Of a stretch of DNA of 64,000 bases, positions 51,370-60,944 are shown one piece after another. Numbering within the stretch: position 1 is the first letter of the stretch; each line of letters opens with the position of its first letter. The stretch spans positions 1-64,000 of the forward strand of contig WJIL01000038.1 of the NCBI GenBank assembly GCA_014730275.1. The letters are read 5' to 3'. The position numbers and the translations under genes are program-made. The notes below the pieces were generated by a model, which saw only the letters and a program-made list of their open reading frames with translations, was not told the DNA's origin and searched no databases. This stretch comes from Candidatus Lokiarchaeota archaeon. GTDB lineage: Archaea > Asgardarchaeota > Thorarchaeia > Thorarchaeales > Thorarchaeaceae.

Positions 51370-52401
51370 TCATACGTCACGAATTCCATCTTTCTGTATT
51401 GTGAATACTGCTTCGCCTTCGGGTAGATTAGGGGAATCAACTAGACGGCAGATTCTTCGTTCACCCTTGGATTTTCGAAGGTAACATCTAACCAATGGAA
51501 CATGGGCCAGTACGTGACCCCCTACGGGAGCAGTCGGGTCGCCAAAGAAGGCGTCAGGGCGTGACATGACCTGGTTAGTTACGTATACCGCCATATTGTT
51601 GATTTCAGAACCTCGCTGTAGATGGTGAAGGTGTTTGTTAAGCTTCTGCTGTCTAGCAGCAAGTGTACCTCTGCCAGTGTATTCGGCTCGAAAATGACTC
51701 ATAACTGAGTCAACGATAAGCAGGCGGGCGCCTTTTTCCGGTGCCATTTCCATTGCTTGATCGCAAAGAAGAATTTGATGATCCGAATTGTAAGCGCGAG
51801 CCCATACAACGTTTTTGAGAACATCATCAGTATCGAGACCAACTGCTTCAGCCATATGTACCAATCTTTCAGGTCGAAATGTGCCTTCGGTGTCAACGAA
51901 AATAGCAGTCGCCTCAAGGCCCCCCTCTTCTCGCGGACGCTGAACATTAACTGCAAGTTGATGGGCCATCTGAGTTTTTCCAGACCTGAATGAACCATAC
52001 ATTTCTGTTAGTCCTTGGGTCTCAATGCCGCCTCCAAGAAGCTCGTCAACTGCCTTTGATCCAGTTGAAATCATACCAGCGTTCTTTCGCCTTTCTAGTA
52101 GCAAATCTGCGGTTTCAAAACCAATATCCAGCATCTCCCTTGCTGCCTTGATGATTTTGGTAGCAGTAGTTTCTCCTATCGAGCCAGCAGCAGCCAGCTC
52201 ATTGGGTGATGCAACAGCAATAGATTCTGCGCTTTTGAAGCCAGCCTCACGGAGACGTTTGCTTATTGCTGGACCAACACCAGGAAGGTCTGTTAGCTCC
52301 ACATCCGCTAATTCGCTTTCGTCTTCTTCATCCTCGAATTCCTCATAATCTGCGTCTTCATCTGGGGGAATAGTAATTACCTCCGGCGTGAGTAAACCCA
52401 T
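51370..52401 (-). CDS. radA: DNA repair/recombinase RadA
   Basis: The archaeal Rad51/RecA homologue for strand exchange, 343 residues. After an acidic N-terminus of about 30 residues there is a helix-hairpin-helix domain (about 33-95, L-P-G-V-G-P at 39-44). The ATPase core has Walker A G-S-F-R-S-G-K-T at 136-143 (usual form G-E-F-G-S-G-K-T, so two substitutions), then [12 protein letters not shown] and Walker B L-L-I-V-D-S. L2-like [10 protein letters not shown] precedes the end. ATG 52401. The HhH domain resembles modules in the Top6A gene of this window. Confidence 0.96.
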
Positions 52402-56154: not shown

Positions 56155-59007
56155 CTAAATCCAGTCACCAGTTTCAATCTTTCTCGGCAGGTATTCATCA
56201 GTAAGGTAGTTGAAGCCGTGGCTAGCAAACGCCTGTATCTCGGCTTTCTCCTTCATCTTGAGCATGAGCTCCAAGTCGCGCACCCACTCCTTGTTTTTCT
56301 GCACGAATGGCTCATCAAGCATCTGTTTGACCCGTCGTATGTCTGAATCCTCCATGCGGATTCGAACGGCCTTGGGGATACTATATTCCTCTAGGTCGCG
56401 ACTCAGTACACCCAGAAGCTTGAGTTCCGGAGTGGCAATGAATGGTGACTCATAGCTCAGCCTCTTGCTACCTCGCAGGAACACAGAGTAGATGTAGTGT
56501 CCGTACGGGTCAGAGTCAACAAGCGCAAATGCTGGAATCTGCAATTCTCTCACCAGCATCTTGAGAAAGGCTCTTGTTGCTATGTCACCAGTGCCCTTTC
56601 CAGTCAGAATGATACAGGGTTGGCGCTCCCAGTACTTTGCTTCTGCCAATCGCATCATGGCAGCGTCTTTCTCTGATAGTATGATGAATTCAGCATCACT
56701 CTCAACGATTTCAACTTGGTCTAGGAATGGTGTGATAGACCAACCACCGGTACCCATCTTGGTTAGGTCGAGGCGGTCACCACCATCGCGTAGGACAACT
56801 CGGCCCATGGCTGAACCTCTTGCTGAGGCTACAACATGGATACTATCACGAGTAGTCTGAAGCATAGATGCTACATCTTCAATGATCTTATCGCTATACT
56901 TCTGGTCTCTAAACAGATTAACGTCACTATAGAAAACTTCTCGTTTCGTTGCGTGGAGGTTGCCACGGAGCAATTCATAGACTATTTCCATCACTCTAGC
57001 AGTGCGTGTTGCATCAAGAACCGATCCGAGCGAATGATAGGGTCGAGATATCTTCCGAGTACCCAGAAGAAGCAGGTCCCGAACTTGATCCCAGACGATG
57101 TTGTCTGCTGAACGACTAGGAATCTCAAAAACTGGACGGCCTGTTGTCATGGCTTCGGCCAGTACTGTTCGAACCTCTTCAACCAGTCTTTCACTCGTTT
57201 CTTCAGCGCTCAGAGCAACGACTTCCATTGTTTGACGCGCAGCTGCGGTTTGCTCTTGCTCTTGTTCCTTGGCCTCTTCCATGAGTTCCTCGGTTTCCTT
57301 CCAAGATTCTACCATTTGAGCTCGGAGGTTCTCAATTGAGTCTGGAACATCAAGGCCAGAATCCTTTCTTTTGATGGATTCCCGTGCCTTCTTCAGTTTC
57401 TTCACGGATGTACTGACAATCGGGATTCGAGGGCCAGAAACAACTTTCATCCCTTGCTCTTCTATAACCCCACCTCGATCAACAACTTCCTTGGCGGTTT
57501 CTATGAGCTGTTCTCCACCAGTCTTTCCGATTCCATTAACATCCTTTGCTAAATCAGCGGGAGACGCTGACACTATCTTTGCAATACTGTCATAGCCTTT
57601 GGAGATCAGACTCTTTGCTGTTTTTGGACCTACACCATCAAGATCTGTGAGTTCAACATCGTCTAAATCAGCAGCTTCGGCCCGTTCAAAAGCTACAGTC
57701 CTAGAGGCTAGCTGGATAACTTTGCTAGCACCTTTCTTTCCTATACCTTCTACTTCATTGGCCAGTTCGTCAGGGTCGCATGCAGCAACTTCAGCTATAG
57801 AAGTATAGCCAGCATCTTTGAGAAGCTGTGCTGTTTTTTCGCCCACACCCTCTAAGTCAACGAGGGCATAATCAGAGACAACGTCCCGTGCCTGTCGTAA
57901 TCTGAAAGCTTTCTGAGCAGACGCGACTATGTTCTCAGCACCCTTATCTCCCACACCTGTGACGAAGCGAGCAAGGGTAGTTGCATCGGCTGTTGCAATC
58001 TTCTCTAGACTAGCGTAGCCGGCGGCTTTCAGGTTCTCTGCAGTTTTCTTTCCAACACCATCGAGCTGAACTAAATCAAAAGTTTCCTCTTCCTCTTCAC
58101 TTCTTGGCTCCTTGGTCTTTGCAACTTCCTTAGCGGAGGCGACTATTTGTTCAGCACCTTTACTACCCACCCCATCTACTGACTTTGACAATTTGCTGGG
58201 AGAAGTATCTGCAATTTTGAAAACGGTGTCATAACCTGCTTCTATTAGACTCTCTGCAGTTTTTCCTCCAACTCCATCGAGGGTTTTCAGTTCTTTCAAA
58301 TCATCTGTAGCAGAAGGTTGGATCTTCCTCCAAAGCTTCTTGGCAGATTTTAGCATCTGATCGGCCCCTTTCTTGCCAACACCAGGAACAGATGACAACT
58401 TGCTGCCATCTGCTTTTGCGATGGATTCTACCGTATCATAGCCTGCTTCTATCAGGTTCTCGGCAGTTTTCCCACCCACACCATCAAGCTCTTTCAATTT
58501 CGCTATCTTCTTCGTGGGTTTTGGCTTCATTTCACGCCATAGTTTCTTGGCCGAGGCTAGTATCTGCTTTGCACCTTTCTTACCAACACCAGAAACTGAG
58601 GAAAGTTCGTCTTCGTCTGCATTGGCAATAGCCTCTACAGAATCATATCCAGCATATATGAGATTCTCTGCAGTTTTCCCTCCCACACCTTCAAGCTGTG
58701 ATAATTCCTTGATTTTCTTCGTAGGTTTCGGTCGTATCTCTTCCCAAAGCTTAATTGCAGCTGCCAGTATCTGTTTGGCTCCTTTCTTTCCTACACCATC
58801 AACTGATGACAGCTCTTCTACGCTGGAGTTTGCAATAGATTCTATAGAATCATATCCCGCATCCTTAAGACTCTCTGCGGTCTTCGCTCCAACACCGTCC
58901 AAATCCTTCAGTGACACCTTTGAATTCCTTCCATTGTGTTTAGTCGTTGTTTTATCATGTTCAAGTAGAGTTGATTGACGTAGCTCGGTTTTCCCTGCTG
59001 GTGTCAT
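56155..59007 (-). CDS. top6A: Topoisomerase VI subunit A (Spo11 homologue) with seven N-terminal HhH modules
   Basis: Subunit A cuts both DNA strands to allow duplex passage. It has 950 residues against about 370-400 for ordinary Top6A. Residues of about 33-510 hold seven tandem double helix-hairpin-helix modules, each opening with L-x-x-L-(D/E)-G-V-G and including a second G-V/I-G-x-K/T-G. A charged Gln/Glu-rich linker follows (about 535-620). The core has catalytic Tyr693 in K-R-E-V-F-Y-S-D-V and Toprim Glu779 with Asp831 and Asp833 (D-S-D-P-Y-G), ending Y-L-P-R-K. The gene follows top6B with a one-base stop/start overlap (TGATG). Confidence 0.93.
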   Translation of the reverse strand: MTPAGKTELRQSTLLEHDKTTTKHNGRNSKVSLKDLDGVGAKTAESLKDAGYDSIESIANSSVEELSSVDGVGKKGAKQILAAAIKLWEEIRPKPTKKIKELSQLEGVGGKTAENLIYAGYDSVEAIANADEDELSSVSGVGKKGAKQILASAKKLWREMKPKPTKKIAKLKELDGVGGKTAENLIEAGYDTVESIAKADGSKLSSVPGVGKKGADQMLKSAKKLWRKIQPSATDDLKELKTLDGVGGKTAESLIEAGYDTVFKIADTSPSKLSKSVDGVGSKGAEQIVASAKEVAKTKEPRSEEEEETFDLVQLDGVGKKTAENLKAAGYASLEKIATADATTLARFVTGVGDKGAENIVASAQKAFRLRQARDVVSDYALVDLEGVGEKTAQLLKDAGYTSIAEVAACDPDELANEVEGIGKKGASKVIQLASRTVAFERAEAADLDDVELTDLDGVGPKTAKSLISKGYDSIAKIVSASPADLAKDVNGIGKTGGEQLIETAKEVVDRGGVIEEQGMKVVSGPRIPIVSTSVKKLKKARESIKRKDSGLDVPDSIENLRAQMVESWKETEELMEEAKEQEQEQTAAARQTMEVVALSAEETSERLVEEVRTVLAEAMTTGRPVFEIPSRSADNIVWDQVRDLLLLGTRKISRPYHSLGSVLDATRTARVMEIVYELLRGNLHATKREVFYSDVNLFRDQKYSDKIIEDVASMLQTTRDSIHVVASARGSAMGRVVLRDGGDRLDLTKMGTGGWSITPFLDQVEIVESDAEFIILSEKDAAMMRLAEAKYWERQPCIILTGKGTGDIATRAFLKMLVRELQIPAFALVDSDPYGHYIYSVFLRGSKRLSYESPFIATPELKLLGVLSRDLEEYSIPKAVRIRMEDSDIRRVKQMLDEPFVQKNKEWVRDLELMLKMKEKAEIQAFASHGFNYLTDEYLPRKIETGDWI
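57478..58911 (-). repeat. Seven-copy tandem array coding HhH modules
   Basis: Each unit is about 68-72 codons long. Copies begin near residues 33, 101, 171, 240, 312, 382 and 452 of the topoisomerase VI A protein. Copies 2-4 are the most alike (G-G-K-T-A-E, A-G-Y-D), suggesting recent duplication; copies 5-7 have drifted further. Confidence 0.85.
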
Positions 59008-60944
59008 CAGTCACCACCTGTGGCAACATCAGCGACTAAGTCGCTGCCCTTGCCATCATTAGTTACATCCTCTTCTTCTTGTGGCTTATCGAAACCAGAT
59101 ATTGAATCTCGGATTCGCTGTGCTATTGATTCAGCATCGTAAACCTTCTTGCCCTCAGCGTCATTTACGATACTCACCAAACTGTCTGCAAACTGATCGG
59201 CATACATGGCAAGTACACCTGCTCTTTTCGCCTTTCTCCTTGCTTTTTCCTTCTTGGACATATACCGCCGGAAAGACCTACCGGCTTCTTCTAGCGCCAG
59301 TTTTATCTCTTTAAGAAGAACCTCATCTTCGGCAAGTGCCTGTTTGCTTTGGCCTTTGAACATCACGTGCACATAAGCACCGCAAACATGGATAAATACC
59401 ATTAATGGGCCCTTAGGAAGGCCATTGTCGAAAGTATCAAGTTTGTAGTTCTTCCAGTTCACCATCGCAGTTGCTTTCCAAGTAGCACAGTCACTATTAT
59501 CACGCATTTTGGGCACACGATTGACGAATCGCTTCAGTACAACCGGGGAAGATGAAGCGGGTTTTATGTCGCCCCCATAAGCTATACAAACCTCCACCGA
59601 GAACGAAAGACCCTTTCCGGAGGTTGGACTCCGCGTAACTGCGGTGATGAAGTCGGGATTGTAGGCCATTTGTATAGTCTGTTCAAAAACCTCTTCGCCA
59701 ACAGGTACTACCGTGTCTGTTGGTGGTGCATAGTAGTCTTCTGATGAAAATGACCTATAGAGAAGCTCAACCTGCAATTTGGACAAGCTTGATGGATCTT
59801 GGCTAGAATCAATCAGCTTTATTCCACGAGTTTCTAGAGCTTCATTAGTATTCGAAATGATATCTTTTGCCTTACTGTTACTCATTCTCACAAATGCTTG
59901 GGTCAGAAATGATTGAACAGTCCGGTGTTCTGTCTCTCTAAGAATGTCTTGAAACTCTCCGATACGAATGCTAGCAGGATGAGGTTTGGCATATTTGGGT
60001 TCTTCTGGAAAGCTATTAACCCGCCGGGGGTAAATATGGAGGTCCCCATATGGATCTATAAAAACGATTGTGACGTGTGAATTCAACAGAGAAGCCATCT
60101 CTGCATATTCATCAGCGTAGCCCCGTCGATATTGAATATTGAGATAGTGTAATCTGATGTAAGTACCCTGTTTGAATGGCAAATCCATCTTCTTAGGACC
60201 CGCCACATAATCCTTCGTGTTGGCAGTCGTAGTATAGTAATCAGCAACCGTAGCTTTGTCAGCTTTGTGATGCTTTGAAATTGTGAAAATCGGTTTTCCA
60301 GTGGTATTCTGAGCATCGCTAAATGCTGAGGGCGCTCCAAATCCCTGGCTGCCACGAGTCTGTCTCAGTTTCTCGCTCTTGCTTGACGCAAGATATATCC
60401 CGAATTTCTCGAGATCGGATGGCACCATACCAATACCATTGTCAAAGATAGTGAATTCATGTACTTTGAAACCATCCTCATTATCAATTGGAATTAGATT
60501 CGGCATCTGAATCTCTTTCAGCTGCATAATGACCAGGGGTTCTTGCATGTCGATTAATTTCTTGAAAGGTGCAAGGAACTCTTTGAAGTCCCGGACTCGT
60601 TTGTCCAAATCCTCCTTCGGATATGGGGATATATGCACCTTCTTGCCGGCCCGAACTTTCTTCTCCAGATCTTTGCTCTTTGAAATAGTATCAACAAGTT
60701 TAGGTTCTAAAGTCTCAGCTATCTCCTTGACAAGTTCAGGATCAAGTTTATCGCTAAGTTCTGGTTTCTTTTTTGTTCGCCACCACCAGCTTTCAATGGC
60801 ATCTATCGAATTGTCAAGAAACTCGATAGCATACTGAGTGTGTTTATTGAGTCCTGTTTCGAACCCAACTAATTGGGTTCTTTTGCGCATGAACTTAGCT
60901 ATAGTTCCTTGCTTGATATCGCCAGTTTCTTGGCCACTTGCCAT
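59007..60944 (-). CDS. top6B: Topoisomerase VI subunit B
   Basis: The GHKL ATPase subunit that clamps DNA, 645 residues against about 530 in the usual archaeal protein. Asn45 (F-L-D-N-S-I-D-A) is the metal ligand, D-N-G-I-G-M lies at 168-173 and the ATP lid G-S-Q-G-F-G-A-P-S at 198-206. The stretch between the N-box and DxGxG is about 120 residues, roughly 90 more than usual, and rich in Lys/Asp/Glu. The transducer domain and C-terminus follow. ATG at 60944; the stop overlaps the ATG of top6A. Confidence 0.94.
   Translation of the reverse strand: MASGQETGDIKQGTIAKFMRKRTQLVGFETGLNKHTQYAIEFLDNSIDAIESWWWRTKKKPELSDKLDPELVKEIAETLEPKLVDTISKSKDLEKKVRAGKKVHISPYPKEDLDKRVRDFKEFLAPFKKLIDMQEPLVIMQLKEIQMPNLIPIDNEDGFKVHEFTIFDNGIGMVPSDLEKFGIYLASSKSEKLRQTRGSQGFGAPSAFSDAQNTTGKPIFTISKHHKADKATVADYYTTTANTKDYVAGPKKMDLPFKQGTYIRLHYLNIQYRRGYADEYAEMASLLNSHVTIVFIDPYGDLHIYPRRVNSFPEEPKYAKPHPASIRIGEFQDILRETEHRTVQSFLTQAFVRMSNSKAKDIISNTNEALETRGIKLIDSSQDPSSLSKLQVELLYRSFSSEDYYAPPTDTVVPVGEEVFEQTIQMAYNPDFITAVTRSPTSGKGLSFSVEVCIAYGGDIKPASSSPVVLKRFVNRVPKMRDNSDCATWKATAMVNWKNYKLDTFDNGLPKGPLMVFIHVCGAYVHVMFKGQSKQALAEDEVLLKEIKLALEEAGRSFRRYMSKKEKARRKAKRAGVLAMYADQFADSLVSIVNDAEGKKVYDAESIAQRIRDSISGFDKPQEEEDVTNDGKGSDLVADVATGGD

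Follow-up and report, generated by a model that had tools for sequence, protein, structure and literature searches.

A thorarchaeal topoisomerase VI A subunit with seven (HhH)2 modules ahead of its catalytic core

The gene at positions 56155 to 59007 of the window (the whole stretch of 64,000 nucleotides that was analysed) raises the question of why the A subunit of a topoisomerase VI (Top6A) should begin with a long array of HhH modules, and whether such an array is genuine, shared with relatives and likely to act on DNA. The gene lies on the minus strand, on which the original prediction was silent, and runs from an ATG at 59007 to a stop at 56155. Its 950 codons are uninterrupted, which bears out the predicted single frame of 950 residues without a frameshift. 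Apart from the array itself, the following features are of importance:

56155..59007, minus strand: top6A, 950 amino acids, array and catalytic core (open reading frame, Pfam and same-genus relative)
57223..57477, minus strand: linker, residues 511-595 (AlphaFold2 pLDDT and secondary structure)
56833..57009, minus strand: winged-helix domain TP6A_N, residues 667-725, with the catalytic Tyr693 at codon 56929-56931 (Pfam 7.6e-20; Tyr693 invariant)
56176..56688, minus strand: TOP6A-Spo11_Toprim domain, residues 774-944, with Glu779 and the DSD motif at 831-833 (Pfam 3.6e-54; residues invariant)
59007..60944, minus strand: top6B, 645 amino acids, directly upstream of top6A (Pfam and NCBIfam)

The core presents everything that characterizes a type IIB Top6A, namely a winged-helix domain with the catalytic tyrosine and a Toprim domain with the glutamate and the DxD motif, and Tyr693, Glu779, Asp831 and Asp833 are invariant in an alignment of 25 sequences. 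The stop codon of top6B overlaps the ATG of top6A by one base. The top6B frame contains a GHKL ATPase domain (HATPase_c_3) and a transducer domain (Topo-VIb_trans), both above their Pfam cut-offs, and among the NCBIfam models it scores above the cut-off of PRK04184 (Top6B) and below that of TIGR01052. The gene at 56155-59007 encodes the A subunit of a full topoisomerase VI (A2B2, type IIB), for which ATP-dependent double-strand passage is predicted from these conserved elements. The relatives with more than 70% core identity are nearly all titled Candidatus Thorarchaeota, with two labelled Lokiarchaeota and two just "archaeon", which places the gene in the Thorarchaeota among the Asgard archaea.

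The solved Top6A structures, from S. shibatae (2zbk), M. mazei (2q2e) and M. jannaschii (1d3y), share with this protein the winged-helix and Toprim domains, the catalytic tyrosine, the glutamate and DxD motif and an adjacent top6B. They are, however, only about 370-390 amino acids long and have no array, whereas the window protein carries 510 additional N-terminal residues with the seven (HhH)2 modules and has no insertion after the catalytic tyrosine. The modules are distributed as follows:

58741..58911, minus strand: (HhH)2 module 1, residues 33-89 (this and the next six from Pfam HHH_5 and a genome-wide scan)
58534..58704, minus strand: (HhH)2 module 2, residues 102-158
58327..58497, minus strand: (HhH)2 module 3, residues 171-227
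58120..58290, minus strand: (HhH)2 module 4, residues 240-296
57904..58074, minus strand: (HhH)2 module 5, residues 312-368
57691..57864, minus strand: (HhH)2 module 6, residues 382-439
57478..57651, minus strand: (HhH)2 module 7, residues 453-510

The Pfam model HHH_5 matches the array with an E value of 4e-96 in seven stretches that span residues 33-510, and in a genome-wide HHH_5 scan all seven modules exceed the curated cut-off. The seven double HhH units with a period of about 70 residues had been predicted exactly, and the domain search that had been proposed as a check found every one of them. Each of the seven modules has two canonical GxG hairpins (14 of 14 in the array) of the DNA-binding type and retains the lysine of the GVGxKTA motif in the first. 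The model of the array displays seven helical modules with a mean pLDDT of 77, and the modules reach approximately 80-92 in a full-length AlphaFold2 model, which was used for the module folds and linker disorder only, as its core was poor (shallow alignment of 25 sequences). In that model, residues 514-549 of the linker have low confidence and are probably disordered, whereas residues 556-591 form a predicted helix ahead of the core. A Foldseek search with the array retrieved DNA-bound topoisomerase V as the best match in the PDB (8df7, E value of 3e-6), with TM-scores that are low because the relative placement of the modules is not predicted (pTM 0.34).

The genome makes wide use of HHH_5 as an accessory module. 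One copy lies in radA (window 51370-52401, 3.8 kb past the stop of top6A). Others are fused to the ribosomal proteins eS25 and eL32, to an MFS-like membrane protein (a transporter) and to a secreted protein with repeats, at its end (L003, L004, L008 and L010), and the genome-wide scan revealed no other protein with more than two modules above the cut-off. Given that ribosomal and membrane proteins also carry the module, the fold alone is no proof of DNA binding. These fusions would fit a reading in which the modules are protein or chromatin docking units that recruit topoisomerase VI to histones or to replication or recombination proteins, as would the net acidic character of the array and the presence among the Foldseek matches of the RAD51 N-terminal lobe with the histone H4 tail (8xbw, TM-score of 0.78 over the domain). 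Nevertheless, several of the HHH_5 copies in non-DNA contexts have a degenerate second hairpin (GIS or GLS), whereas the array is canonical in all hairpins and keeps its GVGxKTA lysines, and its nearest array in the PDB is held on DNA. Docking is therefore considered an unlikely explanation.

An assembly join or frame error was ruled out as the origin of the array, since the Top6A of an independent genome of the same genus (G001) has the identical architecture, with 950 residues, seven modules and 901 of the 950 residues identical (95%). In addition, the modules are just 39-73% alike to one another in DNA, which argues against a collapsed or misassembled recent repeat. The two genomes are separated by a dS of approximately 0.4-0.6, and the dN/dS between them is 0.010 for the core, 0.027 for the linker and 0.082 for the array (0.046-0.111 per module). 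The array is thus under purifying selection, as is every one of its seven modules.

The survey of the array covered 39 genomes (the source genome and its relatives) as well as 80 named loci from GTDB genomes. At least two modules are present in every intact Thorarchaeota Top6A found. Among the 30 nonredundant intact proteins, two modules are the rule (24 proteins), while four are found in three proteins (L012, L013 and L023), five in a single one (L014) and seven in two; the Thorarchaeota copies with fewer modules are contig-end or cut copies or contain a masked run (L040, L055, L066, L067 and L072). No modules were detected in the 44 Top6A proteins from Baldr-, Odin-, Jord-, Loki-, Hel-, Hermod-, Sigyn- and Wukongarchaeota loci. 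The claim that no ordinary Top6A has such a tail thus does not stand as a statement about a one-off, given that a multimodule N terminus is general in Thorarchaeota, although seven modules are indeed the extreme of one lineage. The expectation that related genomes would keep a multimodule tail holds for Thorarchaeota. In a tree of the core, Thorarchaeota form one clade (support of 100/100) with the seven-module pair as a clade inside it (100/100), while the deeper order within Thorarchaeota is not resolved.

The modules also record how the arrays grew. Modules 2 to 4 of the five-module protein (L014) are 78-84% alike, modules 1 and 2 of two four-module proteins (L013 and L023) are 93-96% alike, and modules 1 to 3 of the window protein are 65-74% alike. 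In all four proteins, the duplicated modules are closer within their own protein than to those of other genera, which points to lineage-specific tandem duplications and hence to arrays that expanded independently. These likenesses show that the seven modules were built ahead of the core by tandem duplication within Thorarchaeota. The radA gene was considered as a module donor, since its single module is 43% identical to module 7, and was rejected; other HHH_5 copies of the genome outscore it against a two-module profile, and no donor is named. More generally, the N-terminal (HhH)2 lobe of RadA/Rad51 has the same HHH_5 fold but occurs as one module per RecA-type ATPase.

Copy number is accompanied by a change in the hairpins. 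The two-module Thorarchaeota proteins (e.g., CP070761.1 and LRSL01000092.1) have an orthologous core that is 76-85% identical, the same operon, an N-terminal QxTL motif and (HhH)2 modules, but differ from the window protein in having only two modules, degenerate second hairpins and a Lys-rich basic region. By manual reading, 29 of the 31 modules from proteins with at least four modules have GxG as their second hairpin, versus 3 of the 48 modules from two-module proteins, in which GLS predominates at this place. An automatic count, in which one GLG was overlooked and L013 and L023 were not included, gave 23/23 versus 2/48, with a Fisher P value of 1e-16 that can be taken only as indicative because the modules are related by descent. 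The net charge of the N-terminal region is +25 to +73 in two-module proteins, approximately +50 in the four- and five-module proteins counted, and −9 and −11 in the seven-module pair. In the genus of the window genome, the folded array has taken the place of the basic N-terminal region of most relatives. HhH arrays confer salt resistance on chimeric enzymes, and salt adaptation was accordingly considered. It was rejected, as the Top6A core, RadA and Top6B of the window genome are not clearly more acidic than in other Thorarchaeota and carry no halophile signature.

Variation in copy number (2, 4, 5 and 7) and the recent duplications evident in L013 and L023 are what would be expected if slippage added and removed modules almost neutrally, with the number being of no consequence beyond the two ancestral modules. 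Such drift is highly improbable in view of the purifying selection on all seven modules (dN/dS of 0.05-0.11), the retention of seven copies in both genomes of the genus, and the way in which copy number goes together with a canonical second hairpin and, for the two seven-module proteins, with loss of the basic N-terminal charge.

Among solved structures, the array comes nearest to the topoisomerase V from Methanopyrus kandleri (8df7), which likewise couples a topoisomerase domain to a long row of tandem (HhH)2 domains. That enzyme is, however, a single-chain type IC topoisomerase with a C-terminal array of 12 domains, including AP-lyase domains, whereas the window protein is a subunit of a type IIB enzyme and carries its seven modules at the N terminus. 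No topoisomerase V catalytic domain was found in the window protein, where the sequence match is confined to the HhH array (residues 236-363 against 620-751 of topoisomerase V). The two proteins are convergent and not homologous as enzymes. In topoisomerase V, the 12 (HhH)2 domains wrap DNA and seem to serve as a processivity factor; they have also made other enzymes more processive (PMC9489208). Topoisomerase VI from M. mazei, which has no such array, relaxes DNA slowly and in a highly distributive manner (PMC5922973, PMC8837201). Furthermore, a genome-wide search of the window genome, which is 99.5% complete, gave no match to the GyrA/ParC family (PF00521), in agreement with the published absence of gyrase in Thorarchaeota (PMC9348778).

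The match to topoisomerase V, the distributive behavior of the M. mazei enzyme and the lack of GyrA/ParC together suggest that the array is probably a convergent, built-in DNA clamp that binds DNA and makes topoisomerase VI processive. The seven HHH_5 matches, the canonical second hairpins of the larger arrays, the strongly basic N-terminal region of the two-module proteins and its loss in the seven-module pair, the purifying selection and the independent expansions are counted in favor of this reading as well. Each (HhH)2 module would grip the backbone of the duplex independently of sequence, as the (HhH)2 domains of topoisomerase V do, and seven modules on a flexible linker could wrap or run along the DNA beside the gate. 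By staying longer on DNA, a normally distributive topoisomerase VI would come to relax supercoils and decatenate processively, and with as many as 14 modules an A2B2 could also keep both the G- and the T-segment close to the gate. This would be fitting in an organism in which topoisomerase VI appears to be the only kind of type II topoisomerase. The absence of gyrase is nonetheless insufficient to explain the array, as Odin-, Baldr- and Hermodarchaeota are also without gyrase (PMC9348778) and lack the modules. Two further points speak against a clamp: the array is net acidic (approximately −10 over the N-terminal region), unlike the tails of its relatives, and two more topoisomerase VI operons in the genome could share the work. 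On a broader scale, Thorarchaeota may perhaps have made a distributive topoisomerase VI processive, with a basic tail and two weak modules giving way in at least one lineage to a folded seven-module array, the convergent counterpart of topoisomerase V in a gyrase-less archaeon.

The gripping of DNA, bridging of duplexes or recognition of crossings that had been predicted for the array is plausible. The same modules have been considered as a sensor of crossings or branches. The modules of the two A subunits would then hold separate duplexes, and the enzyme would act mainly on crossings, hemicatenanes and Holliday junctions, perhaps with RadA. Topoisomerase VI does favor DNA crossings (PMC5922973), the junction binders RuvA and Hef/XPF contain HhH domains and their models match the array, and radA lies near top6A not only here but in approximately 20 other Thorarchaeota loci. 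This proximity may, however, be mere inherited gene order, and the modules show nothing that separates junction binding from duplex binding, so that a crossing sensor is rather improbable.

The genome contains three topoisomerase VI operons in all. The further Top6A genes are located at G000:C68:61343-62398 (L002) and at G000:C148:43033-43686 and beyond (L005), each directly behind its own top6B, and neither product has HhH modules. The L002 protein resembles euryarchaeal Top6A in a small tree, and most relatives of the family have it; the L005 protein is very divergent.

The core had also been described as closer to eukaryotic Spo11 than to typical archaeal Top6A. The catalytic loop does agree with yeast Spo11 (8urq) in the pattern R-[DE]-[IV]-F-Y-S-x-V-x-L-F-x-x-Q and in the absence of an insertion after the catalytic tyrosine, which in M. 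jannaschii and M. mazei amounts to approximately 4 residues and in S. shibatae to approximately 17. This loop is Asgard-wide: all canonical Asgard Top6A proteins tested (FYSDVNLFRDQ) are insertion free, as is yeast Spo11 (FYSNVELFQRQ), which rules out a Spo11-like identity peculiar to the window protein. By sequence, its closest solved relative is the S. shibatae Top6A (7e-59), the match to yeast Spo11 being far weaker (3e-6); moreover, Spo11 has no array, and the window protein is paired with a full Top6B. Yeast Spo11 joins the canonical Asgard Top6A against the others in the tree (97/94.8), but as this tree contains a single Spo11, whose branch is very long (6.7), and three archaea from outside, the grouping is a lead only. 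The insertion-free loop in Asgard Top6A offers a lead on where Spo11 came from.

Top6A and (HhH)2 are known parts; their combination is new and has a clear evolutionary structure. Full-text searches of topoisomerase VI and topoisomerase papers in open-licence PMC retrieved no mention of HhH modules in Top6A, and none of the papers combining the terms, by titles and abstracts in open-licence PMC, describes a Top6A array. A topoisomerase and a long (HhH)2 array have thus come together a second time, independently; here the array is conserved in the topoisomerase VI of Thorarchaeota and tuned by lineage, and DNA gripping is predicted for it. The topoisomerase VI enzymes studied are slow and fall off supercoils after each cycle, which raises the question of how gyrase-less archaea manage with them; the natural series of 0, 2, 4, 5 and 7 modules on similar cores lets processivity be tested directly.

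A further conserved element precedes the array:

58957..58977, minus strand: N-terminal QxTL motif QSTLLEH, residues 11-17, degenerate here and reminiscent of a PCNA-binding box (motif conservation)

QxTL is present in 33 of the 36 Thorarchaeota Top6A proteins with an upstream stop, compared with a rate of 0.75% after shuffling, and the conserved consensus is [VI]Q[SAT]TL[GE][ED][LVI]. Hermodarchaeota Top6A has a TTLExH variant from which the glutamine is absent. The motif departs from a PIP box (Qxx[LIM]xx and two aromatics), as the window protein reads QSTLLEHD and its relatives have QxTLxx and a mostly aliphatic pair. The PCNA-binding boxes of the same genome read QSALEDFF in FEN1 and QSTLDDFY in PolB.
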